Assembly: GCA_000310025.1 (NCBI GenBank)
Contig: FN649748.1
Location: 3,154,381 to 3,218,380 of the forward strand
Direction of reading: 5' to 3'
Length of the DNA: 64,000 nt
Source: Ectocarpus siliculosus
Lineage: Eukaryota > Sar > Phaeophyceae > Ectocarpales > Ectocarpaceae
Below the pieces are notes generated by a model. It ran no database searches, was not told where the DNA came from, and saw only the letters and a program-made list of their open reading frames with translations. Both the position numbers and the translations under genes were made by a program. Shown in pieces: positions 1-59,288 of this stretch (its first letter is position 1; each line of letters opens with the position of its first letter).

Positions 1-59
1 GGGGGGGGGTCACTGACTCTGTGTACCGAATGCTGCACCGAACCCTGTACTGAACCAAC

Positions 60-175
60 CCACGGAATCGAACCGTATCAACCGTAACCTACAGCAACGA
101 ACCGAACCAAACCGAACAGAACCGAGAACCGAACCGAACCGGACGAGCCAACCATACAACCACACCATACACCAT
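60..175. repeat. Degenerate AACCG-type pentanucleotide repeat
   Basis: A run of imperfect AACCGAACC units (GGTTC on the other strand) makes up most of this stretch. It lies just downstream of the last visible exon of the minus-strand nucleoporin gene, probably in an intron. No coding or regulatory role is visible. Confidence 0.6.
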
Positions 176-435
176 ACCGTACCGTCAATGGCGCCAGGAG
201 AACCTTGTGCCGACCGTATCTCTGAACTATTATAGCACGTCATCTGGCAGGTTGTCCACGCGTCTCATGCTTTCATCAACAGTCTCGGGAGGACCCCATC
301 GGCACTACACAAGAGTCCCACCCCAATCCTCCTTCTCTTGCAAGCACAGGCACACACCGCCCAAAGCTGGTACATTGTACCGCACGGCCGTTTCAGGTCT
401 CCCTCCCTTCCGAGGGCTGGCTAAATAGCTCTCAC

Positions 436-1473
436 CTCGGCTCCCCAGATCCCCGCGCCGTACCCCGAGGTATCCTGCCACGTGTCCGCGAGGCCCCTGA
501 CCCCCTCCGCCAGGCAGGCGATAGCGTCCTCCTTCACCGCGAACTCCATCGCCGCTGCTCCCGAGTCCTCTCCCCACCTACGGTTGTTCACGAGCGAGCA
601 CACGAGCACGCGAGTAGTGAGGTGAGGCGAGGTGAGGCGGGGTAGTGGAGGGAAAACATGCACAAACGCCTTACAGCAGAAGCGGTCACGGTTCAAGAGA
701 GATATTGCAAATGAGAGAGTGCGGCTTTGAGAGAGTTACAATGGCTTGTCCCGGCTATGAGAGATGCACATACAATTTCATAGTGCGTGGTGTGCAGGAG
801 TGTTTGGGGCTTGTCCCGCCCCTCCTCCCAAAAAACCGTAGCCGCTGCATTGCAGGTCTGACGCGATTTTCGCCGACGGAAGACAGCTACAAGAGAGTCG
901 TCGCGGGGGCACCGCGGAAGCGCGCTTCGGGAGGAATGGGGGTACACACGACCTCAAAAACAGGTGGGGGTGTTGGGACATGCTGCCGCTTTTGTGCAGC
1001 GTTCAGTTTGCCGGGACGGGCAGCTACAGTAGTGACGTCACCACTGTCTACGGAGATCTTCAACGGATATGCATACGTACGTCTAGCTCATGTAAACGAT
1101 AGTCGACAGCGGGAGGGGGGGGGGGGGGGGGGTAGCGGTGAACAGCTTCGTATCGATCGGTCACTGGAGCATCCGAGGGAGGCCGGTAGACGCACACGCT
1201 ACCCAGCACCTCGGTCACTCTTCCGCCATCATACACTACTACCCCCTGATTCATGGCCTCGGTCTCATGACTGGCTGGTTGACTGATACGAGAATGACTG
1301 GTTGACTGTCTGCCCAAGGATAAGAAAACACTGCACAAAAAGAAAGGGTGCGAGGAGGGGAGAGTCTGGTCTCACCCTTGAGAAAGGCCCGGGATGACCA
1401 TGCAGGCGTTTCGAAGGAGAACCCCCCACGCGACCACTACCAGCGTCTGTCCCACGGTAGCAGCAGCAGTAGC

Positions 1474-1524
<51 letters not shown>

Positions 1525-4500
1525 GGCCAACCAGCACGCGGCGGGGAGGCAAGAGTCAATTCAACGCCAAAGTAGCAACAGCAACAGCAGCAACAACAGC
1601 AACAAATGACGCCGAAACAGAGCCTGGATAGGAGAGGCGATGTTTCACAACCCCATCTCTTGAGGACCCGCGCCAAGATAACAGACACGACAACCAACTA
1701 GGTCGAAAGCAGGGCCTGGCTAGTGTCATGTAAGACTATGGCTAAACGTGGTTCGCCCTTGTAACTGACAACAAAATAGTAAGAAGTGGTGTTTGTTGGT
1801 CTTCACCTGGGGTGTTTCTATCATCTCCGGGCTTCCTTCGCTGGGCCCCTCGATCAGCAACCTCCTCTTCGCCTGCGAGAGCACACAACAAACAACGCTG
1901 GGGTCCTTTAGTTGACAGAGTGGCTGTTCCCACTTGCACGCCATCGTACTAATCTGTACACGCGAGGTTTTGAATGGCGGAGGGGTAGGCATTGAACGAG
2001 ACGTTGCAGGGCTCTGGAGAGGGTAAGGCTGCAGCTAGCTGCGCGCAATTCTGAGACAACGGATCGGACTACACCGAACGGGACACACAATGAGACATCC
2101 AACTGTCAGCAAATATAGCGATACTATTGTTGGTCCACGAACGGAAAGGGAAAGAATGTATTGCAGTTCACTAGACGAAATGATGAGGTTAGAGAGAAGG
2201 CGTGACATGGGCAATGGAGGACACGTGCCTCTTCAAACACAAACAAAAATAGTGCTGCAACCGTCTCTGAACTGCGCGCCGTATTGTGGGAACGTCCACA
2301 AAAAAAAACGAAAACGGTTTTCTACCTGCATTCTCAAACTCAGGCAAAGAATACCAACCGACAGTTACCTTGCACATGACGTCCACCGTTGGTTCCATGC
2401 AACTTGAACTGCAGTATACAAAAAAAAAAAATGTCTGTAAACTTCGCCTCGATTTGTGTGCCATGAAGAACAAAAATATTTATCGCGACATCATACCAGC
2501 ACAAACTAAAGACACATTTACCGCCATGTGCAAGACAAAAACCGTCAAAACCAAACGCCACAGCGTTGCTCAAGTGCTCTTCCGGAGAACCGGAGGCGGC
2601 GAGGCGGCGGCGGCGGCGGCTGGGGGGGGGGGGGGGGGTCCGTCATAAGAAGGAACACTCAACACTCGAGTCGAAGATCCACCGCTCTTCTCTCTGCCCA
2701 AGTGCCGTTCCGGCGGGGGGGGGCGGGGGCTCCGTCAAAACGGAAAAAAAAAACTCAAGCCAAACAAACCCACCGCTCTTCTCTCGCTCTTGTGGGAGTC
2801 CATCATGGCAGCTATGGTCTCGTTCACGACACCCAGGCGTTCTCGAGCGGTCTGTCTCACGGACGCGTCGTCGGCGTTGAAGTCTCTCAGGAGTGCGTGG
2901 TGCAACACCATCTCGTCTGGGCTGTCCACCTTCTGGAGGTCCAGCGCCTCGATCCCCAGCAACGCCAGGGTAAAGCTGCACATGCCAATGTTTTTTGGGG
3001 GACAAGGGCAACGGTTAAGCCAGGTGGGTGGCGCATACCGTGATTTTTGTAGGACAAAGGCAACGGTATGCCAAGTGGGTGGCACGTACCATGGGATTTG
3101 TAGGACAAGGACAACGGTTCAGTCAGGTGGGTGGCACGTACCATGGGATTTGTAGGACAAGGACAACGGTTCAGTCAGGTGGGTGGCACATACCATGGGA
3201 TTTGTAGGACAAGGACAACGGTTCAGTCAGGTGGGTGGCACGTACCATGGGATTTGTAGGACAAGGACAACGGTTCAGCCAGGTGGGTGGCACGTACCAT
3301 GGGATTTGTAGGACAAGGACAACGGTTCAGCCAGGTGGGTGGCACATAACATGGGTTTTGGTAGGACAAGGGCAACGGTTCAGTCAGGTGGGCGGGGGTA
3401 TGGAGATGCTGCATTAGGCAGGTAAATGCCTACCTCGCGGGTAGTGTGAATTTGGCTGTCGGAGGGGGACAATATCTTGTGGCACCAACCACCACGTTGT
3501 TTGGGGGGTGTACTCATGCAAACGCAGGCCGTAGTCGGTAGACCATTGACCTCGCATCTCTACAATGCCAGGACGGAGCGATATGCAGGGGGTACGGAGA
3601 TGCTGCATGGACAAGTACACACCTACCTTGCGGGTCGTTTGGTTTGTGGGCTGGGTGGCCAACAAGGGAAGTGAAACAACTGCCACCGCCATGTTGCTTT
3701 GGGGTTGGGGTGCTTGGGGAAGAAACGCCGCTTCTTTCTGACGGCGGTGCTTGTATTCTCTTTATAGAGTGGTGCGGGCCTCTTGTATTGCTGCCTTCAC
3801 ACTAAAAACCGTTCCGGTCTCCTCTCAGTACCCTCTAATGTCCGTACTGGTCCAACACACGCAGACGCCTTCCGTGGTCACAAGCCAACTAGGGTGCATC
3901 TTTCTAGAACAAAAAAAAAAAACGGACCCAGGAAAAAAACTCCAAACGAGGTCGTGTAAAAGGGAGACTATTATTAACTCATCTCGTTTTAACAACCATT
4001 GCTTGCACTTCTACCAGATCTACTGCCATGGCTGTCTGCGTGGATAATCCTGATCCCGATCCAACAGAACGTCTTCGTCCAATCTACAACCTGGTGCCAG
4101 AAACGTTTTTTTTATCTGTCTCCTAGGATGGGGAAAAAAATGAAAACCCAAAGGCTACAGCAGTACCACCATACCTGTAGGGGGAAGGTGGGACAACAAC
4201 AACAAAAACAGTCCCTTGTTGTACAAACCTTTCTCCTTTCGCCGAAAAAAAAAAAAAAAAAAAGTGCCGACTGGCGCGGCAATAGATGGGGACGACAAGA
4301 CACACAAATTCGGCGCATTGCATTTGTGACCACACCTCCGGCACATGCTCCAAAAAAGTACCGAAAAGTGTAGACAAAAAAGTTCCGAAAAGTATAGACT
4401 TGCGCCAATACAGTAACAGCAGATGCGACGAAAAAGAGCATAGACTGGCGCATACACAATAGAATGGATACAAAGAGAGCACACACACAAGCACAAACTT

Positions 4501-7500
4501 GGGAGCATGACATGCACAGCAGCAGCAGCAGCAGCAGTCCCGTGAGAGCCATCCGGCAGTCACATCACATCCACCAGGGCCAACTATTATAGCACGCGAA
4601 CCTTTCGCACCCCTAGCTAGATACGACCTTCCTTACCTGAAGCTTCGCGCCTTCTTGGAGACTTCTGAGGCTGCCGGAATGTACGCCCTGAACGCTGGGG
4701 GCATCGAAAAGTCCGCCTCCTGCATGAAGGACAGCATGTCCATCACCAGCCGTGCCTGGTCTCCTTGCACCTAAAAAAGGGGAACATTGCGCGGAGATGG
4801 TCATGTGAGGGAGGACCGAAACGTTCAAGAGCAAATGATATGTAAACCCTGTTGCGATCGTTTGGGCGTAGTTAATTCTTTGAGTCCGTTAGATTTTGCG
4901 ACAACAACCACGGGGCTGGTTTGGTCTCGCTCAACGTCCGTGACCGTCGTTATTCCCGGCAGTTGCACATTATTGTCACGGAGAAGTTGTTGATAACGTT
5001 ATCATCTCTCCGCGGTAAACAACGTTCCGTTTCGTCTACACAACCCATTCCGTCATTTCGTGGAACAGCGGTGTGAGGGACAACTTCGTTGTGTTGCCAC
5101 TGCCCTACTGAATATGAGACATACAGTACCAACTCCATGGAATAGAACACCCCCCCCACACACACACACCACAACCAGCGCTAATTTGTACATCACGGAT
5201 CACCATGAGTCCAGAACATCAATCTACTCTCCAAGTTGACATCATTTCGCGGAACAGCAGCGGTGTGAGTGGGAGCTGCTAATGTTACCGCCGTCCCGCC
5301 ACGTTCAAAACCGTTCCATCCTACCGAATATGGAATATGCCACCACACCTCCACGAAGAGTAACCCCCCCCCCCCCCCCCCGCCAAACACACCCAGTGGC
5401 ATTTTTTTAATACGAATCACCACGACTCCAAAACATAGAGCGAGTATATCAGACGGATCCTACCAAACGGGGGCAAGCATAAGAAATTCTGCGCTTATCT
5501 GAAGGAAGGGGGGATTTACCGTATTGTATGACGTAAGATATCACACACCCTTGGACCGATTTCCAAAGCTCTATTACTCGGCAGGGAGAGCAGTGACGGT
5601 CCCGAAAATGGCGGAGTTGGACCGTCGCATCGAGAGTCAAGGACTTTCCGAACACATATCGCTTGCCTTCGGCACCCTCTTGGCCGAGGAGTAACCGACC
5701 TTTGAAAAACGGTTCAGGGGGTGTGGTATATTACGTCACGCAACCTACGGTGTAGTATATGGCCAAGAGGATGTCTGCGTGCCTTGTTCAAGACCGACGC
5801 CAGTTCACCATTCTTGGTCGAGTCTACCACGTCGGCGCATCAGCCACCGTCGTGGCTCCGACACAAGAGGGAGGGTATCTACCTTATAAGATGGGGCTCC
5901 GATAGAAGAGGGTCGAAATCGGTCGTCACGGACTCGACCCTTTTATAGTGCTGAGTACTCTCTTAATCCGGTATAAGAGGGAGCTCTGAAATAAGAGGGT
6001 CGAAATCGGTCGTCACGGACTCTGCACTCTATGTAGTATAGTTGAGTACTCTCTTACTCCGGTATAAGACGGGGCTCTGAAATAAGAGGGTCGAAATCGG
6101 TCGTCACGGACTCGACCCTCTATAGCATACTATTATTATAGTAGTTGAGTACCCTCTTATTCCGGTATAAGAGGAGGCTCCCATAGAATCGAGGGCCTTT
6201 GTCACACCACCCTCTTGTAACGGAGCCACGACCGTTCTCTCAAATCAATCAATAGGGCCCCGAGACGACCACTCACCCGGTAGCGGTAGTACCCCGCGAT
6301 CACCATGCAGCCGACAACTTCGGACAGCTCGGCCACCCGCTGAGCGACCCACTCCCGCTTCCTCGCGGCACCCCCCCATCCCTGCCCGCTCTCGCTAACG
6401 ACGACGGGAGGGTTCTCCTTGAACAGCTCCCGCAGAAGCTCGAACAGGTCCCTCATCAGGTCGGGGTGGTGCCTGCCGAGCACCTGCTCCGCCTTCGGGT
6501 GAAGGCTGAGATTTTTGTGAGGAAACGTGGGAACATCGCGACGGACGGAGTTCATACAGGTAAGGTTGGAGCAAGGGGGGAGGGGGGTGGGGGGTGCATG
6601 CCGAGCACCTGTTCTGCCTTCGGGTGAAGGCTGACTTTTTTTTGTGAAGAAACGTTGGAACATCGACGGAGAAGGCTAAGGTTTCACCGATGGCACATAC
6701 TACGGCGGATCGAAATCCAGCCGAGGAGAAGAGTCTTGACGCACGATACTGCTGTACAAGGCTAACGCGGCAACAGCACGGGGTCGTATCCTTCCGTGGC
6801 GATCGGTTTTTCGGGGCAATGTAAGGCGGGGGGATTCGAGCCCACCGAACAACGGCGGTCCAGCCGAAATTCTCCAGTGCTGCGGCGTTTCTTCGAGGGG
6901 AGGGGAGGGGAGGGGATAGTAGGGAGGCATATGTGACGTAAGATAGCACACCCCCTGGACTAGACTTTCGAAGCTAGATTACCCCACGAAAAAAAGAGGA
7001 TGGAACATAAAACATTCAAATGGTCGTAACGTTCGGCGCAGCTCAAGGCAAGACGATTCGAACACGCCATTTTTTCGCCACCGTCACGGCTGCTTCCTGC
7101 TGCAGACAAATCGAGCTTCGAAAATCGACCGAAGATCTGTCCCGTGAAAAAAAAAATGAAGGAAGTCCGCCTGCTGACAGGGCGAGCGGGCTCCGATGCC
7201 GCGCACCACGCAACGTGTACCAGCACAGCAGATACGCGAAATAAACCCTTGCGAAGGAAAACACCAAGAAAATGCGCTTGCCTGTTGTCTGGGCCCTGAT
7301 CAATCCTCAGCAGCTCGTGCAGCAGGTAGAGGTGGGCTAGACGCTGGTTGCGGAAGTAGTCTCGGACCTTGGGGGCACCGCAACGTAAAATCGGGTACAT
7401 ACGATACAGACAGGCATGGATGTTCGTTTCATGGTTGATGGTCAACGGTCGTAGACAGATGTTTCTGGTACAAACTCGCGTTCACGGTGGACGCGGGAAA

Positions 7501-9214
7501 GGGATGGCCAAACTCTTCTCGCCACAAAAAGCAAGGCCAGCACCGCAAGGGGGAAAAAGGTGACGCAATGAAACAACAACAACAAAAACATGGAAAAATC
7601 TCCTGTGCCACCTTCCTCTTGTGTGGCCCCGGCTGATACATACGCCACGAAAGGCCTGTAAACCGGCGCCAGAATAGATGGGGACGGACACACACACAGC
7701 AAAACACCTTGTCACCACTGCCGCCGTATTTTCAAGTTCTCACTTCGAATAGAAGGAACTGCGACGAGAAGTCCAAGCCCTCCGACGCAGGGGGCGACCC
7801 ACGCGGGCTCTCGGAGTTCCTACGCCTTAGGAAGGCGTGCAGAACCTGCACACACTGAACCTGTGAAAACGGAAATACATGGGTTGGAGGCGGGGTGCAA
7901 TGATTGTGAGGCACAGAGCTACACTCAGATATTACGGAGATCTTTCTATGCCAACAAAGCATGAGTGGAAACCTACCGAGCGTAACAGGGGGGAGGGGCA
8001 GGGTCACGTGTCACACACACGAGGGAGACATACGACGCGGAGGCATTGCGCAGCCGTCGCGTTTCTTTCGCGCAACAATCGAGAACCACGTTTTCGAACG
8101 TATGGCATCCCTTGGTGTACATAGCACATGCCGCGAGAGTACCACACGGCCCGCCTGTACCCCTGCTTCACAATCGGCACCTACTGACCACGCGTCCCTC
8201 GAGAGGGCGAGTATTGAGTGGGTACGGGGGGGGGGTGCTCATGTTTCGCATCCCTTCGTTTGTTGGACCATTGACCACACGTCATCGAGAAGACGCAGCA
8301 TTGAGTCGGGGGGTCCTGTGTTCGCTGCTTGCTACCAATGGCATAAGTTTCTGGGACCGGTATGACCGGACCGTGAGGGAAAATGATGAAAGGTTTCTTG
8401 CTTGTTTGCGGCACTTCTTGGCCCTCTAGACAAATACAGGGTGGGTTATGCTAGGCTGATTCACCCGCCCTATAGCGGGCACCCGTCCTATTCAAAGTGC
8501 CAAAACCTTTAATTGTCTACGCCAAGAGATTTCGCTCAACCAAACACGAGTACTGTGCGCTTCGAGGACAACACTAATGAACACACCGCCCCGCTTCGTC
8601 AATACCCCCCCCACCACCACCCTGTCCCACCTCGTCAAGATGGAGGAGCTTCGAAAGGGAGACGCAGAACTTCCCTTCCGCCTCGCCCCCGGGAAGAGAA
8701 CGCTCCTGCTCCCCCTCCATTAACGCCACCTTGCCATCGACCACCTTCTTGAGGGACTCCGCGCTCGGCTGTGGGCCCCCCGAACGGACGGACGGTGGGT
8801 GAGATGGACAGCGAAGAAACGAGGGAATAAGCCGAGCTGCAAAAACCGGAGCAGCGGGGGGTGCGGTGTCTTGCGTGGCATACGGTAACAGCACACGGAG
8901 CAAAATGAGAGCACACGCCAGGTTTCAGTTGGTCGCCCTCCAAAGTCCCGACTCCATAGGTCCGCCGCCACGTGCCGTGCAGGCACACCACGAAGAAACC
9001 GCCCCGACCACAACGAAACGACACGTCTTTATCACAAGTCCACAAACAACTCCCCGCTCGCAACACACGGATTGATTGCGTTGCGCGGGTGGCACACCTT
9101 CTTGTAGTAATTCGCCAGCCCCTGGGCCATCCTCTGCCCCGCCGAGCCCTGCAACAGCGCCAGCTCCACCAGCCTCGGAGTGTCCGCCGTGGGCGCGCTC
9201 AGCAGTGAATACAC
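436..9214 (-). CDS. NUP188: Nup188-like alpha-solenoid exons
   Basis: Nine exons, of which seven (9214-2774) form one continuous frame of about 340 residues. Their order and key phrases follow the N-terminal solenoid of Nup188: VYSLLSAPTADTPRLVELAL, then SAESLKKVVDGKV, KFCVSLSKLLHLDE, VRDYFRNQRLAHLYLLHELL, KREWVAQRVAELSEVVGCM, ARLVMDMLSFMQEADFSMP and FTLALLGIEALDLQKV. One intron (7281-6506) appears to use a GC donor (CAG/GCAAGC), because only that site keeps the phase. The last visible exon, 577-436, aligns with the human segment ending in LFWGTEP. The candidate exon 1872-1807 is weaker. The assignment rests on remembered family sequence, not on a search. Confidence 0.72.
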
Positions 9215-10198
9215 CTGAACGAAGGAACACAAAATGGGGGGTGCGGGGGCGTGCTCATGTTAACGCATGCCGCAGTTGTTTGGCCATTGACCTCATCTAC
9301 TACCGGGAAGGAGCGATATGCCGGGTTTCCGCCGGCCCAGGCGGGGGTCAAGCAACAGGGAGGGCGTGCTAAGGCCACGATCGCTGAAGAATGGGATGTG
9401 ACCGGCGTGGCTATGCAGTGTGCAAGGCCGGACGCGCCAGGAGAGATGTTGCCCACGGGCAAGGAAAAATAAAAAAACACCCGAGCGGGCGCGCCGACAA
9501 TAGCTACACTGGATAGAGGAGGCACTTTGTGCAGATCGAACAGCTTTGACCACGCGAGACTATGACAAACTCATGTTCGTTGCTTCCATATGCATCTCTC
9601 CCTCCTCCTTACCCTGTGAGACCCTTGTCACGTGGGTTGTCCATGCATGTTACGGACAAACCCGCAAAGGGACCACGACTATTGCATCGCAGACACTCCA
9701 AAAATATTAAAAAAAAAGAATAGCTGCTGTAGTTAACGCTGGTTTTTCTTTATATAGGTGTCACCACATGGGAAATACCGGGGGTGGGAATCTGTGAAAC
9801 TGTCGGACAGCAGTAGGCTCCTTCGATAATAGAATGCTCCTGCTTGCGTAGGGGGGTACCAACACCTTCGCTACTACACCCCACCTGTTCGTCGTCGGCG
9901 TTCCGCCAGAAGTCCTCCGAGCCGGGGTTGACGGCATCAGGGTCACCGGCCGAAGCGCTCGTGAACGCTAACGGTGCCACCGCCGCCGCAGGAGCCGCCG
10001 CCGTCGCAAGCGGAAGCCCGGGCAACCCCCCCCCCCCCCCGGTACGACCACTACCACCCACACTCCAGATGACCCAAACAGTCCTCCGGCCGCCGCTGTC
10101 GGTGTCGCCGCTGCTGCCAGTGCCACCGTCGCTGCCGGTGCTGGCGCGGCAGTGCTGCTCGCCGTTGCGGGTGTCGCGACCGGCGCGGGAGCCGTACT

Positions 10199-10230
<32 letters not shown>

Positions 10231-12251
10231 CGGCGCCAGAGGCGGCCGGGGCAGCGGCACCCGCGGCCGGCGTGGAAGCCGTACTGGCAGCAGCAGAAGC
10301 AGCGGCAGGAGCAGGAGCGGCAGCAGAGGCGGCCGGGGCAGCGGCACCCACGGCCGCGACGGCGGTGCGCCCGAAGCTGAAACCTCCCGACCCCGACCCC
10401 GCTGCCGCCGGGGTCGGCGCAGCAGCGGTGCCATCCTGAGCCGGCGCAGAGGTCGCCGTCGCGGCGGGGGGAGGCTGAGCGGCAGCTGCAGCCGTTGACG
10501 AAACGCTCGCAGCCCCTGCCCCGAAGCTGAATGCCCCCGTCACAGCCGTCGCCGCCGCGGGTGCGGGGGTGGCCGCAGGAGGCTGAGCGGGCGCGGGAGC
10601 GGACGACGACGACGACGCGACCGTCGCCGTTGTTGCTCCAAAGCTGAAGGATCCGGTAGCGGCTGCGGGGGCGGCAGACGGTGCCCCCGCGGGGGTAGAG
10701 GCGGTAGCCGCGGCAGGTGCAGGTGTCGACGACGCCCCGAAGCTAAACCCGCTGATGGTGCCGGCGACGGCGGCGGCGGCTGAGCTTGGTACCGCAGCGG
10801 TGGTACTGGTGCTCACCGGCGTGGCAGCAGGGGCAGCAGACGGAACGCTCGCCGTCGTTGCCCCGGCGGTAGTAGCGGCGGCGGCGGCGGCGGCGGCGGC
10901 CGGGTTATTGACAGCAGGTGCCGGTGTCGTCGTCGAAGGTCCGAAGCTAAACGAAGGAGCAGTTGCTGCTGCGGGGGTGGTCGTCGTTGTTGCGGGAGCA
11001 GCAGCAGCTCCTAACGCCGACAAAGAAGCAGCCGCGGCTGCTGCCGGGGCGGCCGATGTCGCGGGTAAAGGGGCTCCAAAGCTAAATCCCGTTGGGGCAG
11101 CCTTTGCCGGAGCAGTAGCAGGTGCCGTTGCCGATGGAGTTACGGGAGCGGCGGCTCCAAAGCTGAGTCCGGTCGAAGCGGCGGTAGTGGCGGCCGGTTG
11201 CGCAGCAGACGCAGCCGTCGCCGACCCCCCAAAGCTAAATGACGTCGCTGCGGCTGCCGCTGGGGCCGCCGATGTTGCGGGGGCGGCAGCACCAAAGCTA
11301 AACCCTGATGGAGCCGTTTTCGCTGGAGCAGGGGCTGCTGCTGTCGCTGCTGCGGGAGCGGCGGCGCCAAAACTGAACCCTGATGCGGCAGCGGTGGTTG
11401 CTGCTGGGGCAGGTGCTCCTGCTGTCGATGACGTCGCCGGAGCAGCAGCTCCAAAACTAAACCCTGATGGAGCGGCTACGCCTGGAGCAGGTGCCGTTGC
11501 CGATGATGTTGCAGGCGCGGGAGTACCAAAGCTTAGGGCAGTCGAAGCCGTTTTCGATGCCGGGGCAGGTGCTGGTGTTGCTGCCGATGACGTCGCGGCA
11601 GCAGCAGCTCCGAAGCTAAACCCTGATGCGGCAGCGGTTGTTGCTGCCGGGGCATGTGCTACTGCTGTCGCTGCTGCGGGAGCGGCGCCGCCGAAACTAA
11701 AACCTGATGCTGCAGCCGCTGGGGCAGGCGCTGCTGCTGTTGATGATGCCACGGGAGCGGTGGCTCCGAAGCTAAACCCTGATGCTGCGGTGGTTGTTGC
11801 TGCTGGGGCAGGCGCTGCTGCTTTCGCCGGAGCAGCTGCTGCAGCAGCCCCGAAACTAAACCCTGACGAAGCGGTAGTCGCCGGGGCGGCGGCGGCCGCA
11901 GCAGCAGTAGTCGCGGGAGCCGCCGTCGCCGCCGCCGCAGCGCCAAAGCTAAATGCAGGGGTTGTCGCTGGAGCGGCCGAAGTCGTCGCGGGGGCAAGAA
12001 AAGAAGGGAGGGCGACAGACACCAAAGGGGTGGAACGAGAGTGGCCGGAAGAGGTGAGAGCGGTGCCCGGGGCGGGCGATTTCGGAGCGGGGACGGGGAA
12101 CGCGCCGACGGCGGGGGCGGGGGCGCGGCTCACGACCAAAGCGCCTAGCTGCGCCGGGGTGGGCTGCTGAGGCTGCGAGCTCGTGGCGGGGGCGGGGGCG
12201 GGGGTGATGGGCGCGGCGGAATTCGGGCCGGCAAAGAAAATGACACCTGGC

Positions 12252-12286
<35 letters not shown>

Positions 12287-13856
12287 CGTCTGCCCGGTTG
12301 CCGCCGGTACAAGCCCGAAGGCACTTCCGCCTGCATGGGCCAGGTCACGAGGTGTTAGAAGAGGAAAGGGAGCTGGGGGTGGGGGGGCAGCAGGGCTCCC
12401 ATGGCGCGGATCGTACCGCGCAACATTACTCTGCAGACTCGTACAAAGTGAGGCTGTTGCGATTCTTCTTCATGCGGTCGGCAGAGATTGTGAAACCACG
12501 CCTCATGTGCATGGCACCTTATGCGTTGACGGTCCAGAAATCGAGCAAATAATACAGCGGTCCTGGTTTCTCTGGCATCTTCTCTACACGGGCGGGGGGG
12601 AGGGGGGGTTGGGATTTGTGCAGCACCACAGTAGTGGGAGGAACAACAGAAACAACCCGTTCTGATTTGATGTGCGCATGTTGGTGTGATATTTACTAGC
12701 TTGTGTTCGCCGATATTCGGTACTGTACCTTCGAAGAGCAGGGAACCTACGGTGTTGGGCAGAAGTCAGTTGCGTCTACGGCGCCTTAGAGAATAAAAAG
12801 AAGCACTTGCTCCAGGAAGCCCGCTGATTTTTTCGCAGTGGAATGAGCGGCTGACCAACAGCAGTAAAACTACGTGTCCGTGGGTGAACAAAAGCCCCAA
12901 CGAATTCGGCCACAATTCTTCCGTCCTGGAAGCACAGGCGCCTACGTACGCGGCCTCCGAAAACACGTCGTTCTGACTGGTAAACTTTCTCCTGCATCCT
13001 GGTAAAAAGCAACACCCTCCACTCAAAGGCATGACATGACATAACAAGGTGGACGTGCATCGCGCACGGCACCTCAACAAACCTCCATCACGGCGGTGCA
13101 ATCGTCCCGGCCTCTCCCCCTCCCTCCCCAACATTATTTAGAAACCCATAACCCACCGGCGGGAGCAGGAGCCGTTGCAGCGGTAGCTCCAGCGGCACCG
13201 AAAGAAAGCGGTGTTCCCGCCGCCGTACCTCCAAATCCACCGGAGGCGGCCGCAGGCGCCAGCGCCGCGGCAGCTGGTGCAGCCCCGAACCGTCCTCCTC
13301 CTCCGAACACGGACGTCGTGGCCGCCGGCGCCGTGGCGGCCGAACCAAAGCCCCCACCGAAGCCCGCGGCGGCAGGCGCAGCGGCAGCGGGAGCGGGGCT
13401 CTTCCCGAAGCTGAAGCCCCCCGCGGCAGCGGGGGCGGCGGTAGAAGCAGTATTTTTCGCCCCGCCGAACCCGCCACTGAACGCTGCCGCCGCGGGAGCG
13501 GGTTTCGTCGTGCCAAAACCACCGCCGCCGAATGTTCCCGGTGCGGGAGCGGGTGCCGCCGAACCGAGGCCGCCGCCGCCGCCGAACACGGAAGTTGAGG
13601 CGGCCGGGGCGGCGGCGGAGGCGGCGGCGGGAGCGGTGCCGCTAGAAGCAGCTCCGAAGCCGCCGAAGGAAAACGCTGATCCGGGGGCGGGGGCCTGGGC
13701 GGCAGCCGGTGCCGCGGCCGGTGTCGATCCGAAACTGAAGCCCCCGGCGGCAGGCGTAGACGCCGCTGCTGCGGCGGGTTTTGTGGAGCCAAAGGAAAAG
13801 GCGGCTCCGCCGGAAGGGGCCGAAGCGGGGGTACCACCCGCCCCCGCGCCGAACAT
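436..13856 (-). CDS. NUP188: FG-repeat nucleoporin fused to a Nup188 scaffold N-terminus (partial, runs off the left edge)
   Basis: Nup188 is an inner-ring scaffold protein of the nuclear pore; FG repeats form the permeability barrier. My exon model on the minus strand is 13856-13157, 12330-9885, 9214-9098, 8768-8631, 7860-7744, 7367-7282, 6505-6277, 4770-4637, 2975-2774, (1872-1807) and 577-436. Junction phases agree from exon 1 to 2774. The exons after the FG part follow human Nup188 in order: GLANYYKK, SKLLHLDEVQCVQVLHAFL (human SKFLGLDEEQSVQLLQCYL, from memory), YFRNQRLAHLYLLHELL, then LALLGIEALDLQKV and GLADTWQDTSGYGAGIWGAE. About 70 expected residues between 2774 and 577 were not found, so an exon is missing from the model. 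The start ATG at 13856 opens MFGAGAGG. The C-terminal two thirds of the family lies outside the window. Alternative: two adjacent genes, an FG nucleoporin and Nup188. I favour one gene because the junction is in phase. Confidence 0.72.
1458..1521. repeat. (CAG)n trinucleotide tract
   Basis: About twenty CAG/TAG-interrupted CAG units in a Nup188 intron. Other CAG/CTG tracts lie at 4518-4537, 10200-10228 (coding alanine on the minus strand), 31289-31321 and 63957-63988, so they are a general feature of this genome. Confidence 0.9.
1807..1872 (-). CDS. Candidate small exon of the Nup188-like gene
   Basis: A 66-nt segment between a CTCGCAG acceptor and a CAG/GTGAAG donor, reading AKRRLLIEGPSEGSPEMIET and two more residues. 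It begins and ends in phase 0, so it fits directly after the 2975-2774 exon. I saw no family similarity. It may be a lineage-specific loop or a false exon. Confidence 0.35.
3000..3395. repeat. 52-bp tandem minisatellite in a nucleoporin intron
   Basis: About seven and a half copies of a 52-bp unit centred on ACCATGGGATTTGTAGGACA. Landmarks fall at 3088, 3140, 3192, 3244 and 3296, an exact 52-bp period. The outer copies are diverged. The array lies in the minus-strand intron 4636-2976, ending within 25 bases of the splice acceptor of the 2975-2774 exon. Confidence 0.92.
3505..3600 (+). repeat. Dispersed repeat family X, copy 1
   Basis: Contains the family core GACCATTGACCTCGCATC next to a GGACGGAGC block. 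Related copies are at 8222-8290, 9242-9345, 24640-24770 (inverted) and 48935-49059. No coding capacity is visible. Confidence 0.7.
5526..5745. mobile_element. MITE-like element A (terminal inverted repeats)
   Basis: The left end reads GACGTAAGATATCACACACC. The right end (5701-5745) is its imperfect inverse, ending GGGGGTGTGGTATATTACGTC, so the two ends form inverted repeats of about 40 bp around a body of about 130 bp that includes GAAAATGGCGG. Non-coding. A related full copy is at 55123-55333, and single ends are at 6926-6980 and 27083-27108. It lies in the Nup188 intron 6276-4771. Confidence 0.65.
5850..6231. mobile_element. MITE-like element B with internal tandem units
   Basis: Ends are GTGGCTCCGACACAAGAGGG and its inverse CCCTCTTGTAACGGAGCCAC. 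The interior holds about three diverged units of roughly 100 bp, each with GGTCGAAATCGGTCGTCACG. A 95-bp short version sits at 55347-55441. In both places element B lies just after element A. Non-coding. Confidence 0.65.
6926..6980. repeat. Solitary end of MITE-like element A
   Basis: GACGTAAGATAGCACACCCC followed by CTGGACTAGACTTTCGAAGC matches the left end of element A. I did not find a matching right end nearby, so this is probably a truncated copy. It lies in the intron 7281-6506. Confidence 0.55.
8222..8290 (+). repeat. Dispersed repeat family X, copy 2 (short)
   Basis: A poly-G run, a GTGCTCATG block and a GGACCATTGACC core match the family X consensus. Lies in the intron between the nucleoporin exons 8768-8631 and 7860-7744. 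Confidence 0.55.
9242..9345 (+). repeat. Dispersed repeat family X, copy 3
   Basis: GTGCTCATGTTAACGCATGC, then GCCATTGACCTCATCTACTA and a GGAGCGATATGCCGGG block match the other copies. Lies just upstream (minus-strand sense) of the 9214-9098 exon. Confidence 0.65.
9885..13856 (-). CDS. FG-repeat domain (exons 1 and 2) of the nucleoporin gene
   Basis: Exon 1 (13856-13157) has four FSFG repeats and several GFG motifs. Exon 2 (12330-9885) has about seventeen FSFG or LSFG repeats and one GLFG. Spacers are almost wholly Ala, Pro, Thr and Ser, more alanine-rich than the usual S/T/N/Q spacers. The intron 13156-12331 joins in phase (GCC G / GC GGA, giving AGGSAFG). Exon 2 ends DFWRNADDEQ before a GTGGGG donor at 9884. 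Near its end the frame changes across a 15-C tract at 10026-10040. No intron I could find fixes this, so a one-base homopolymer error in the assembly is likely. The long plus-strand reading frame at 10755-12170 is the antisense shadow of this Ala/Pro-coding repeat. Confidence 0.85.
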
Positions 13857-16800
13857 ACTGGGAGCTGACTTGCTCTCCCTTGGATGAGCTATGCAGCAGC
13901 CCTTTCCAAGGGCCGTAGAATGTAAAAAAACTCAGTCGCCCTGCAGGGTTGTTGCGCGAACGAGCAAGCGTGCACCGGGGGGGGGGGGTCAGCTGCGTTC
14001 AGAGACAGCAGTAGCTGTTGGTATGCCACAGGCCGAAGAAATAAGTTTGATTCAAGAACTTTGTTGCTTAGAGGGTGACAGACGTGAGGGAGGCAAGACG
14101 GGCTCCGCGTGCCATGTCCGTCGTATGTACCCATATCATCATCCACGGAACCCCCAAACAACCACCGTGACAATACGGGGCGACGATGGTGAATATCTCG
14201 TTTTTGCTCTTGTGATGGTGAGAATACAACAGCGGTAATTTCAAGCGAGAACCGGCAGGTATATCCAAGACCACATCTGCGTCTCCAGAATGTAGGGCGA
14301 GCTCGCCGTGGTACATTGTAGCAACCGCAAGATGGGATGCTACACCGAATCAACCAACCAAGCTCTCATTGAGCCGACAGCAGTTGCACAGACTCGCCAA
14401 CCGGCGGTGATGCGCCATCCTGGCAGTAGAGTACAACACCTGCTACTGTAGTACCAAAACTACAGTAATAGTACCAGCTCCAGTAACCTCCCAAGCCCTC
14501 GCGGCACTGACGGGAGGGGTGCGAGGTCAAGCAACTACAACAAGTATTAGGAAACATAAGTAGTGACAGAGAGCACGTTATTTGGCCGGAAATAGCAGTA
14601 CGCGGAACGTACAACTAGCTCCATGCTTGCTGACCACCACCATCACTGCTGTTATTTGTGTTTAAACACTTGCTTGTCTTGTCCGCCAGGCCAGCCGCAG
14701 TACTGCTGTGCACTGCCACAGCCTCCTGGGCCACCTTTGGTACAGAAGGATATGGGTCTATTGGAGACATACAGAAGCACGCATGTATGATGAAACTATT
14801 GCTGTATTTCCGAAAGAACGCAACCACCGGCGAAGGACGCCTACCCTGAAATCTTCCACGGAGCAAACACGCTACAAGTGCTATGCGGTGTGCATGCAGG
14901 AGAGGTCTGACCTCCGCAGCCCATGGGCTTGACGATGGGGGAAAATACTGCTGTAGAGGCAACACACACCGAGAGGGTGCGCTGAATAGCATAAGAAGCA
15001 ATTGCAGTCTAACAGCTGTTACAAACTGGCAGACAAAGCAGTAGGAGGATCATATTTGGAGACGCAGGAAACGAAAGAAAGCGGGCGCGACGGAACCAGG
15101 AGACAACGAGAGATGCATGGAGTACTGCTGCATTCGTAGAGAAGGTGTGTGTGGGGGATGGCTCCGCAGCTCGTAGCCAAACACGATTTCAAAAAGTGGT
15201 AACATGGTAGCATACCCCATGTCGAGAAACTTTATGGCACACCCTCGATTGCCGCAGAGTAGGTCCACGCAAGTGGTCCACACAAAGATCTACAAGCACC
15301 AGCCATAACACACCGGGGTGTAGCCCAGCGTCATTCGCGCGGTGCTAGTCCTCGCCGGAAGGCCAAATTCAACGACATTTTGAAACAGAAAGGCGTTGAG
15401 GATGTTGTGGTGGCACTGCTGTACATACGTGGTTCTGATCCACTTCACAAACCTGACGTGCTGGCCTCCCAATAAACCGCCCAGGCGCCAGCAGCTCTCG
15501 AAACGCAGCGTCCAGTTCCACCGGAACTGCACAACACGGCACAGCAGCGCGGTGTGTGCGGTGAGCGCAGCGGCTCAGGGAGTGCTGAAGGCCTGGATGG
15601 CTTTATTTTTCTGGACTTTCCATCCCCCCGCCCCTCGCCCCCTGCACAATTTTTGTGAAACGGTTTTCGGATTTTGGATGCAGAAAAATCCAATTGGAAA
15701 AATCCACACAACACACACGTCGTTATTTTTATCTGCATGCAGAGCTTCCGACGACATGCGTGTAACGATCATATTGTTTTTGGCCTGCCGTGGATTGGCG
15801 CTGCAGATCACTTCTGTACTCCAACCACAAATCGACTTGTTTGCACGGGTCTGATCGCGTTGAAGACCCAAAGCAAGCGGCACGCCATCCCAACTCCCAA
15901 ACCTACACCACACTATACATACATCATCATCAGCACTTTCTACTCTACACGGATCTCTCCGCGTCCACATCTCCCGAGCAAGACCGGAGACAAGACCAGC
16001 TACAACAGCATCTCCCGAGCACGACGGGAGACAAGACCAGCTATAACAGAGGGCTAAGGAAGGGGCAAAGTGAGTAGATGTAAAGGTATGGGCGGGGCTT
16101 CCTCAACTCTCGCCCTCGAGGTACTTCACACTCCCACACGAGTCTCTTCCCTGCTGTACCACATGCATAGACTGTGAAGTACTTGAGGTCTGTATCACTG
16201 GTACAGCATATAGTCTAGTTTTCCCTTCCGTAGCGGCGACCGTCTAGGAAACGACAAGTACATATCGTCACGGCGACAACTACAGCGATGTGGCATGCCT
16301 TTCCGTGCTTGGCCTGTTCATGGCTTTGCCAGAGTGACAGTGCATGCTGTAGCAACACTTTTTTCGCGTCGTGGAATTCCGCCACCTCTCTCCCTCTCTC
16401 CTCCTCCTCTCCTCTCGCTCTCTCCATATTTTCCCCTCCCGCGAACGTACCCGTTCGTCGTGCTGCTACGGCTCCTGGTAAAAGGAAAAGTGTCGCTACA
16501 CAATCCAACTACTGTAGATATGTATGTGTACTGTAGACTGCTGCATATCTAAAGTTGCCAAATATCTCCCCGAGGGGCTCAACAGAAGATCGGCGATCGC
16601 TTTTAACAGCAGACAGACAGTTTTACTGTCGTTGGACAAGGCCGATACGGCTGTCTGAGCCATGTGGTGCTTGATCTGTGGTCTGAACAGGTATTTATCT
16701 ACTCTACGCAATACCATACCATACGTTTTTTGTAGTTTCGGACTGCTTGACTAGGTCTCATTGCTTGACATGACGGTTGTATCGATGTAGTAGTGGCGAT

Positions 16801-20527: not shown

Positions 20528-21574
20528 TCAATCTCTGCCGCTGTCGTTATCGTCGGGAAGGTTCCACAGATGTGCCTCCTTCATCCATGTAGCCATCCCC
20601 TCTCCTTTGTCACTACTGACACAGTGCGCCACGATCGTGTCGTTTGAAATTGGTGTCCGCCGGCAGCTTCGTGTGTACTTGTTATGCGGCAGCAGAGTTA
20701 CTTTCAATGAACCCCCATCAACAGTGATATTTTCAATCACGCCCGTCCCTGGTCGCGTGTTATCCGTGAAGTTCATGTCACTCATTGGATCCCAAACGAC
20801 ATCGAGCTTATTCAACGCTTCGTTCACAGCGATTTGGTCGTTTCCCAACTCATTCGCGATTTCCTCCACGACCGTCATGAACGCCTGCATTGCGCTGCCA
20901 CCAGCCCGAAAGAACGCAAAACCCATGCAGATAGTTGCTCCCCACTTGTGATACAACGGGAAAGGCATTACGGCCCTCGATGCAACGACGTTGCTGTCCA
21001 GAAACGCATCTGAAGCCAAGTCATCCGTCGGATCGCGGAGCCAAATTGCATCGGCATCCGACATCAATACGTCTTGGCCAGCGTTCAACAAACATATGGT
21101 GACGTCAATCCTCAGCACCCATATATCGCCTCGTGACACTGGGCATCCCAAGCAGCCATACCGAACACAACGTATCCCCAGGCCGTCGAAAATCGCCACA
21201 GATTCCTCGTCGAGGCACACTAGGTACAGGTTTTCTCGGGAGAATGTCGAATGAAGCTCCATGTTCGAGATAAAGTTCTCTTCCAGGCTGGCGTAAGGTT
21301 CGGACACGACTTGGAACACCACCGCCGGGCTTGATCGAGGAGGCAACCACGCGAGCATGTCAGAGCAAGAAGAGTCCTTTGTTATGGGCGGAAGGGTGCC
21401 CGCGACGGTGTCGTTGGCCAACCCCATCGTATGGACGACAACGTTGTCGGCCTCGTCCGGCTCGGCGTCCGGCCCGGCGGCATGTATGGAGGATGTCTTC
21501 AGACACACCACCAGACACCAAGTAAGTAGCCACCCCCTAAGCACCCGTACGCTTGTTGTCCACCCCGTCCCCAT
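20528..21574 (-). CDS. Nucleotide-diphospho-sugar glycosyltransferase (GT77/PF03407-like), intronless
   Basis: A 348-residue open frame from ATG at 21574. Residues 11-33 form a hydrophobic signal-anchor (VLRGWLLTWCLVVCL), typical of Golgi type II glycosyltransferases. The metal- and sugar-nucleotide-binding DxD motif is at 172-181 (SDADAIWLRD). It is followed by the family-like blocks WGATICMGFAFFRAG (211-225) and NDQIAVNEAL (245-254). Cysteines and four N-x-T sites (54, 268, 282, 311) suit a lumenal domain. The layout resembles PF03407 proteins such as plant RG-II xylosyltransferases. Donor and acceptor sugars cannot be read from sequence. It has no introns, unlike the other genes here, which could mean retroposition or simply a one-exon family. 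It lies alone between repeat-rich regions. Confidence 0.78.
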   Translation of the reverse strand: MGTGWTTSVRVLRGWLLTWCLVVCLKTSSIHAAGPDAEPDEADNVVVHTMGLANDTVAGTLPPITKDSSCSDMLAWLPPRSSPAVVFQVVSEPYASLEENFISNMELHSTFSRENLYLVCLDEESVAIFDGLGIRCVRYGCLGCPVSRGDIWVLRIDVTICLLNAGQDVLMSDADAIWLRDPTDDLASDAFLDSNVVASRAVMPFPLYHKWGATICMGFAFFRAGGSAMQAFMTVVEEIANELGNDQIAVNEALNKLDVVWDPMSDMNFTDNTRPGTGVIENITVDGGSLKVTLLPHNKYTRSCRRTPISNDTIVAHCVSSDKGEGMATWMKEAHLWNLPDDNDSGRD

Positions 21575-24002
21575 TGGGCACCCCGGTGAGCCGCTCGTCG
21601 AATCGATGTTCTTAAACCACCTGCAACGGCCAAATAAGTTTTCATTACAATAGTCGCGAAGCCACGGCCTGCACGTTCAGGGGCACTACAGGAGTCTGAC
21701 GCGCTGCTATCGCGGTGGAGGCGCACATGGGGTGGCCAGTAAGACAATCCATAGAGAGTAGAGAGAAGTACTTAAACGTCTGAACGCAGGGTTCGACAAA
21801 CCATGCGAGTACATCGAACACAACAGCGATCACGGTAATGCTGTTAAGCCGCTCTTCTATTGTTGTTACCGCCGCTAGGTGACCGGTTTTCACGTTAACG
21901 ATCAAGCAACAATGGGCGTCCTTCCAGTCGTACGATGCTGCCGTTGCTGTAACACACACTGCTGTACAATGTTGTCGAAGACACCTACAGCGGTCTTGGT
22001 TAATGGTAGTTGCAACAACCCAGCACAACACAACTACGACGAGAAGGCGTTCCTCCACATTGTAGTCTACCCTTTCTTCCAACCAAAAAAAAAAGAAGCA
22101 TCTGACTGGCAAACCTAGAGCAAAGTGGGCGTCCTGCATGCCAGGTTGTTACAGACCTGTGTCAGTGAACAGTCGAGGTGATACTCTCAAGAAGGTAAGA
22201 GCTCGCCCCTGGTGGCGAACTCTGGAACACGGCCACCGATCCGGCTTCGGAAATTCGAACAAATCGGTTGCGTGTTCTTTGCTATGTATTTCAGCCAATA
22301 GTTTATTTCTGCCTTTTCAGTCGTCATTATTGGGTTTTGGGACGACCATTACAAAGGAGTCATTTTTTAGAAACAGGCAATGTCCATCGCGGTTTCACAG
22401 CTTTCAGACACCACTCAAGCGTAGTGTGGACTGCCTCGGCCATGGATCAGAAAATTCTCGCGATTTTTTCCCTCTTTGGGGTCTCTCTGGGTCTGAATCA
22501 AGGTGTGGAGCTGTGTCGGGATTATTGAAAGAAAAAATAAAAACTTCTTCCTTCTTCCTAACTTGCCGGTACGTTCCGGCCGACCTCGCATGTCCGTCGT
22601 TCACTGCAAACTTTGCCAACCCGTACGACATGATGACGACGATGATTTGCCAACATATTTGCCAGCCCATCTTTCGCGGTTTGTCCTGCGTTCGTTCGGA
22701 GTCGGAGAAGAAAGTCCACAATTTCTTTTTCAAGGCGATGAGGGGTCTACGAAAAGACGGGTCGTCTTGGGGTGGAATACGTTTCAGGGTACCAACTCGT
22801 GCGGGGTCGCCAAGGTTTTGGCTGCCTAGTAATAGACGCACTGCGAGCGGGGCTTCTCATCGTCTTGGGTACGCGATCGGATATGGATCGGTTTCGTTCT
22901 CACATCATTGCGTTTGGATTCCTGGAGAACGCTATTACTGCGTCGCTCGGACTCGTGCTGCAAATCGCATGCTCGTCGGGGCTGGAGATGAACCTAGACG
23001 CCAGAAATAGGCACGTCGTTCGAGGGCTTCGCCTCGTGGGGCGCTTCGCCTCTCCGTGGGTGCGGGGCCATGGTACCAGGGCTCGCGATATTCTGTGGGT
23101 AACTGGAGAAATGTGAGCCCACCAAGGTGGCTCTCATATTGTTCGGCTCGCCGACGATTCGCGTCCCGAGTCCTTCCTCTGTCGTGGCGAGTACTTGGTA
23201 AACAGACTGTTGAACTCTCGCCACGCTCGCTTTTGGCGTTTCCTGGGCTTCAGACCGTGAGCGACTAAACATCGGATCACAAACATCGATTTCAGGTATC
23301 TAGAGATGAGCACTAAACAGTGGTATACTTTAGGGTCTGCCAATAGACCTCTTCGGTATGTTTTCTTCGATGTCCGTCCATGGAGGTAGCAAGGAGCGTG
23401 GGAAAAGCATGCACAGCAGAGTATGGGGGGTGTAGGCGTGGGGTTTGGATACGTAGGCCACCCAGAGATGCGAAAAGTTACCAATGACTGACCGAAAAGA
23501 GTCGAGCCATCGGGCAGGGTTAACGGCAGTCGGAAGTTTGTGTTCTGCTGATTAACCCGAACACGCACCCAAGGGGTTTAATGGTTCGTTTTTTGCCGTG
23601 CATCCGCAGCAGCCGTAGCAACGTTTTTCTCCCTGTCAAGTATCCATTGTGTGGCCACGCAATAGCGGCCGTGCCTCCGCCCGCCCGCCAATGTAGCAAG
23701 CAAGTCGCTGGTTCTCCTACCCGCAGTGGACCAGCGTATGATGCCTACATAGGGAACGGCCGCCTCGCAGAGGGAGAACTTTCACAATACATATAGCTAG
23801 CAAGGGTAAGTAACGTTCCCTCCGAATAGCGTCGGCTGGCGTGTATGTAGCACGTCAGCGCCGGCCTCTTCTTCTCCCCCAGTATGCGGCACGAACGAGC
23901 TGGGAGGATGATCCCCGCCAACAGCGGGCTGAGGCAACGGGTTAGAGGTGATTGACATAGAGCCGGTCCGATATTTGTTCACTTGGCACATCCTGCGTTG
24001 AT
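21575..24002. other. Intergenic region with one unrecognised open frame
   Basis: Upstream of the glycosyltransferase. A plus-strand frame of 290 codons runs from ATG at 22138 to 23010. It has no recognised domain, a poor codon pattern, and competing long frames in the same span on both strands (for example 22772-23116 plus and 22404-22841 minus), so I do not call it a gene. It could be a decayed element or an orphan gene. Confidence 0.4.

Positions 24003-43666: not shown

Positions 43667-59288
<15,622 letters not shown>

Follow-up and report, generated by a model that had tools for sequence, protein, structure and literature searches.

A gene model joining a phenylalanine-glycine repeat domain to the N-terminus of Nup188 in the brown alga Ectocarpus siliculosus

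Exons of the FG domain and the solenoid

The stretch of DNA analysed here (the window) comprises 64,000 nucleotides of the brown alga Ectocarpus siliculosus (assembly GCA_000310025.1, contig FN649748.1, forward-strand positions 3,154,381 to 3,218,380). Between its positions 436 and 13856 the minus strand carries a series of exons that probably belong to a single gene, one that encodes an ortholog of the nucleoporin Nup188 with an N-terminal phenylalanine-glycine (FG) domain of ~1,040 residues. All exons described below (E1 to E12) lie on the minus strand and are given in window coordinates.

The alanine- and proline-rich FG domain is encoded by two exons. E1 (13157..13856) starts at the ATG at 13856 (MFGAGAGG...), holds the first FG block with 16 FG motifs, and ends in phase 1 at the donor GTGGGT, where it is joined in the same phase to E2 (9885..12330). 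The latter contains a spaced [FL]SFG array, with 19 FG motifs upstream of a 15-base G run, and ends in DPDAVNPGSEDFWRNADDEQ before the donor GTGGGG. From the ATG to the G run the frame is 996 residues long and includes 35 FG motifs (19 FSFG, 3 LSFG and 1 GLFG), as against a mean of 6.55 and a maximum of 16 in 5,000 shuffles. Motifs lie close together in E1 and at about 1 per 21-31 residues in a middle run of E2, and 54 of the 59 phenylalanines of the domain stand in an FG or FxFG context. Alanine makes up 39.6% of the chain and proline 12.3%, and only 14 of the 996 residues are charged (D, E, K, R). Such a large excess of FG motifs over the random expectation, together with low sequence complexity and few charges, is what characterises an FG nucleoporin domain, and this part of the protein is predicted to be disordered. 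The 22 [FL]SFG motifs are encoded in 18 ways that vary mostly at third or synonymous positions, and it is therefore the protein motif rather than the DNA that is conserved. A 527-residue open frame also runs antisense through the FG exon (10587-12170, plus strand), which we read as a by-product of codon bias in DNA rich in guanine and cytosine (GC).

At its 3' end E2 reads DFWRNADDEQ, and across an intron of 670 bp (9215..9884, phase 0/0) it joins the VYSLLSAPT of E3, which starts at 9214 after GTTCAG; the predicted peptide across the join is DFWRNADDEQVYSLL. An earlier sequence-only reading of this DNA had described ~1,000 residues of [FL]SFG repeats that terminate in DFWRNADDEQ and are joined in phase to VYSLLSAPT. 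The in-phase splice sites at 9885 and 9214 stand as described. However, just the 22 of 35 motifs counted above are [FL]SFG, and while the array and DFWRNADDEQ both lie in E2, they do not share one uninterrupted frame, since a shift occurs at the G run, a feature absent from that reading.

The solenoid part is spread over ten exons (E3-E12; 434 residues) that are consistent in phase and free of stops. E3 (9098..9214; VYSLLSAPT...GLANYYKK) corresponds to the N-terminal helices of Nup188, and E4 (8631..8768; PSAESLKKV...VSLSKLLHLDE) was selected from the candidates in the intron between E3 and E5. Nup188 solenoid sequence is read in E5 (7744..7860; VQCVQVLHAFLRRR...LLFE), E7 (6277..6505; LHPKAEQVLG...VIAGYYRYR), E8 (4637..4770; VQGDQARLVMDMLSFMQ...) and E9 (2774..2975; FTLALLGIEALDLQKVD...), the local alignment to human Nup188 extending into E9, and E6 (7282..7367; VRDYFRNQRLAHLYLLHELLRIDQGPDN) ends at a GC donor. 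The last three exons fall outside the significant alignment: E10 (1807..1872; AKRRLLIEGPSEGSPEMIETPQ) was assigned from splice sites and phase, E11 (1376..1446; TLVVVAWGVLLRNACMVIPGLSQ) was picked by eye against human Nup188, and E12 (436..577; GWGEDSGAAAMEFAVKEDAIACLAEG...) is the last exon before the window end and a 7.4-kb gap of N. The start of E7 and its upstream sequence appear, when read by eye, to be duplicated just upstream at 6505-6680 (a second CCTTCACCCGAAGGC... at ~6630). Tandem arrays occupy the intron before E9 (3000-3392, 7.6 copies of a 52-bp unit) and the intron after E7 (5885-6123, 2.7 copies of a 91-bp unit).

Identity of the solenoid and other nucleoporin genes

When the spliced protein (a 454-residue query) was searched with phmmer against 177,635 distinct PDB sequences, human Nup188 came first (E=8.6e-4) and Xenopus Nup188 second (E=4.3e-3), and Nup205 was not among the matches up to E=10. 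The PDB match is collinear at the N-terminus, with query residue 46 onward aligned to residue 40 onward of human Nup188. Local alignment gave z-scores of 17.0 and 18.2 to human and Xenopus Nup188 and of 2.5 to a 152-residue plant piece, compared with 1.2 and 0.0, or chance level, to human and Xenopus Nup205. The Nup188 entries used were PDB 5ijo, 7wkk and 9sob, whose molecule names appear in the outputs and which we take to be from human, Xenopus and a plant, respectively. The chain thus carries an N-terminal solenoid similar to known Nup188 and nearer to it than to the paralog Nup205, which, at the level of sequence comparison, supports its assignment to Nup188. The sequence-only reading had likewise taken the sequence after the junction for Nup188 and had named a match to a different family as the outcome that would speak against it; the two best PDB matches are both Nup188, Nup205 scores at chance, and the exons can be followed to 436.

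Some exons were chosen by eye with Nup188 in mind, and a selection control was applied to the choice of E4. As the best of 114 phase-0 exons (30-300 bases) in the E3-E5 intron, E4 brought the score to 118, whereas 60 shuffles averaged 41.6 and reached at most 58, and the exon chain without E4 scored 71 against a null maximum of 60 (500 shuffles). This exon-selection null replaced a spliced-alignment search with low intron penalty, which was dropped because it chained chance matches. Pfam scans of the spliced solenoid returned two sub-threshold unrelated families alone, and a profile built from three Nup188 N-termini placed no exon above noise among 1,656 unspliced frames of the window, because single exons are too short.

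We also searched the whole genome (189 Mb, 492 contigs, numbered such that the window is G000:C23:3154381-3218380). E3-E7 (229 residues) matched this locus alone, in five matches, and a 198-residue piece of the FG array matched strongly here alone, with two weak, stop-containing matches elsewhere (E 0.028 and 0.26). Two further FG nucleoporin genes were recognised. A Nup98-like gene lies on C27 at about 1,529,000-1,533,000 and combines a Nucleoporin2 domain (E=6.3e-12) with an upstream open frame holding 30 FG motifs, 8 of them GLFG. A Nup62-like gene on C5 (about 2,032,677-2,034,700; L018) has an Nsp1_C-like coiled coil with a weak family match (E=0.93) and FG exons followed by TVEEIVNSWNVELDQ, which we take to be Nup62-like; the pieces seen hold ~7 FG motifs, with 6 counted in the tallied pieces and 1 more in another open frame. 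We considered whether the FG block in the window could be the FG portion that Nup62 seemed to lack, and rejected this because the C5 gene has FG exons of its own. The FG domains of both genes resemble that of the window in their alanine/proline-rich linkers, FSFG motifs and few charges, but they adjoin the coiled coil and the Nucleoporin2 domain, respectively, whereas the array in the window adjoins the solenoid. A genome search with PF13634 (Nucleoporin_FG; E up to 0.01) matched two other loci and left unmatched both the locus in the window and the Nup98-like gene with its 30 FG. Genome searches for Nup205, with its Pfam family and with the human protein, gave no match, which is uninformative as neither query matched anything anywhere. 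Prokaryote contigs gave 26 pattern matches and 0 confirmed relatives.

Elsewhere in the window, an open frame at 20531-21676 (minus strand) contains a nucleotide-diphospho-sugar transferase domain (PF03407, E=1.8e-11). Among 102 scanned frames, matches to amino acid kinase and ACT domains, together with a below-cut-off homoserine dehydrogenase match at 44310-44945 (minus strand), suggest an aspartokinase-homoserine dehydrogenase gene, and a SAP30 Sin3-binding domain was found as well. Light-harvesting genes gave 82 genome matches at E up to 1e-5, among them clusters of full-length matches with identical scores on C92, C232 and C488; the one gene tested matched PDB chain FCP17 (E=2.2e-122) and then other fucoxanthin-chlorophyll proteins. 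These matches mark the source as a fucoxanthin alga, in keeping with the stramenopile origin assumed in the sequence-only reading.

One gene or two

The coding frame of E2 shifts at the 15-base G run (10026..10040). A score for codon usage, with the FG domain as training set, favoured frame 0 before the run and frame 2 after it, and the frame-2 signal persisted to the last scored window, which ends at 9911 and whose own score is low (0.13). After the run, frame 2 reads LPGLPLATAAAPAAAVAPLAFTSASAGDPDAVNPGSEDFWRNADDEQ, while frame 0 gives an Arg-rich stretch up to a stop. The switch from frame 0 to frame 2 requires an error in the length of the run, a polymorphism or a short intron. The frame change could be spanned by one of ten candidate small GT-AG introns, and we infer that it is bridged in the gene.

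Several observations weigh against a continuous FG-Nup188 gene. Taken literally, the FG frame meets a stop at ~9970, so the assembled sequence is not one open frame. The DFWRN tail alone aligned weakly to Nup188 N-termini, its human, Xenopus and plant scores being reached by 614, 41 and 83 of 2,000 tail shuffles. The first PDB query, built without E4, matched no Nup188. PF10487 (Nup188_N), a search of which the sequence-only reading had proposed as a check, found nothing in the spliced 454 residues (to E=10) or in the genome, although the same model was silent in all 14 control genomes too. The homology-driven gene finder with low intron penalty did not rise above its null: over the whole window human Nup188 scored 219 on both strands and Xenopus Nup188 189 on the plus and 220 on the minus strand, and over 1-14000 of the minus strand human Nup188 scored 107, whereas 60 shuffles averaged 101 and reached as high as 143. 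Finally, a 7,409-bp gap of N lies immediately below the window start, beyond which the remaining Nup188 would lie, and the C-terminal solenoid had no recognisable match in the 40 kb beyond the window, 9,920 bases of which are N. An SH3-like domain between clamps is described as separating Nup188 from Nup192 (PMC9061825); in the algal gene it would be expected inside the 7,409-bp gap or past it.

The strongest alternative, which we nevertheless consider unlikely, is that two neighbouring genes are present, namely an FG nucleoporin ending at ~9970 or inside the 670-bp intron and, after it, a distinct Nup188 gene with an unrecognised start. The stop given by the literal G run would fit such an arrangement, as would the weak resemblance of the DFWRN tail to Nup188 and the statement in PMC5450191 that Nup188 and Nup205 are without FG repeats. 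Nevertheless, the frame that leads to DFWRNADDEQ has no methionine back to its stop, and a scan for alternative starts covering the intron (9884-9215) found no exon that begins with ATG and could be joined to E3 in phase. A start at the first in-frame methionine of E3 would lose the first Nup188 segment, the frame-2 codon signal continues to at least 9911, and the FG domain would be left with no recognised anchoring domain. In addition, the sequence here shares with the beginning of human and plant Nup188 an early [FL]-W and, after it, a YYK or MFK motif, a likeness that is statistically weak.

Far less probable is an assembly artefact in which an FG gene from elsewhere was mis-joined to Nup188. 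The assembly does have gaps, one of them abutting the window start, and the region is GC-rich and repetitive. However, there is no N within 1-14000, splice phases agree across the FG/Nup188 join, the searched FG-array and Nup188 pieces match strongly here alone with no intact separate copy found, and the Nup98-like and Nup62-like genes retain their own FG domains elsewhere. That the solenoid is instead Nup205/Nup192, making the gene the direct counterpart of Tetrahymena Nup308, is least credible of all: the FG-then-solenoid layout is shared and Nup188 and Nup192/Nup205 are reported as related (PMC3679522), but the chance-level z-scores to Nup205 and its lack of any PDB match up to E=10 speak clearly against it.

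We therefore favour a single gene because the splice phases agree, the joining intron lacks an in-phase ATG exon, the DFWRN frame lacks a methionine, the frame-2 signal runs past the G run, and the searched FG and Nup188 pieces match strongly at this locus alone. The most likely state of affairs is that the FG-Nup188 fusion is real with one frame problem remaining, and a single mRNA and a single protein would then span both parts.

An FG-bearing Nup188 in the nuclear pore

The closest parallel known to us is Nup308 of the ciliate Tetrahymena thermophila, described as having GLFG repeats over residues 1-570 followed by a helical region, and as grouping with Nup205 at a bootstrap of 72% (PMC5450191). 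The algal gene shares with it, at gene-model level, an N-terminal FG domain ahead of an extensive alpha-helical region of the Nup188/Nup205 class. It differs in that Nup308 belongs to the Nup205 clade, carries GLFG and comes from a ciliate, whereas the gene described here belongs to the Nup188 clade, carries FSFG and comes from a fucoxanthin alga; its solenoid does not show the Nup205 orthology of Nup308 (z of 1.2 and 0.0). The first ~150 residues of human, Xenopus and plant Nup188, unlike those of the algal protein, begin without an FG array. In the open full-text literature, a scope that leaves subscription journals and most preprints outside and in which papers were covered in part, no FG-bearing Nup188 was found. 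The novelty is nonetheless smaller than first assumed, because Nup308 already provides a case of a GLFG domain at the N-terminus of a Nup205 ortholog.

If the fusion is real, the solenoid would place the algal Nup188, like that of other eukaryotes, in the inner ring of the nuclear pore, and the low-complexity, nearly uncharged FG domain would project into the pore from the N-terminal end of the protein and may there bind transport receptors and join the cohesive FG barrier. For FG domains of Nup98, phase separation and uptake of receptors have been reported (PMC4283134). On the simplest reading the FG domain would be a scaffold-anchored part of that barrier. Yeast Nup188 is reported to contact the channel trimer (PMC9061825), and the authors of the Nup308 work propose that its repeats compensate for an FG-poor Nup62 with 'relatively few' FG (PMC5450191). 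Nup62 looks FG-poor in the alga as well, as judged from the ~7 FG in the pieces seen. Because an FG-rich Nup188 and an FG-poor Nup62 occur here, and an FG-bearing Nup205 and an FG-poor Nup62 in Tetrahymena, it is tempting to speculate that much of the central FG mass has been transferred in the alga from the trimer containing Nup62 onto the scaffold of the inner ring, perhaps repeatedly across the stramenopile-alveolate-rhizarian group, although we regard this broader proposal as doubtful.

In the textbook pore, scaffold proteins and FG barrier proteins are separate. Should the fusion be borne out, it would put Nup188 in a lineage group for which the table of a 2010 survey, its columns taken from plain text, appears to mark none, Nup188 being entered there in opisthokonts and plants only (PMC2951903). 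With 16 Nup188 modules held in the inner rings (PMC13242641), this gene would place ~560 FG motifs per pore on the scaffold wall. Since fungal Nup188 is reported to bind FG repeats in vitro (PMC3679522), the fusion would also tether an FG ligand and an FG binder in one chain. Taken with the ciliate Nup205 case, it would mean that no fixed division separates scaffold from FG proteins, and that on at least two occasions the barrier repeats have shifted their anchor point to this one pair of scaffold proteins.

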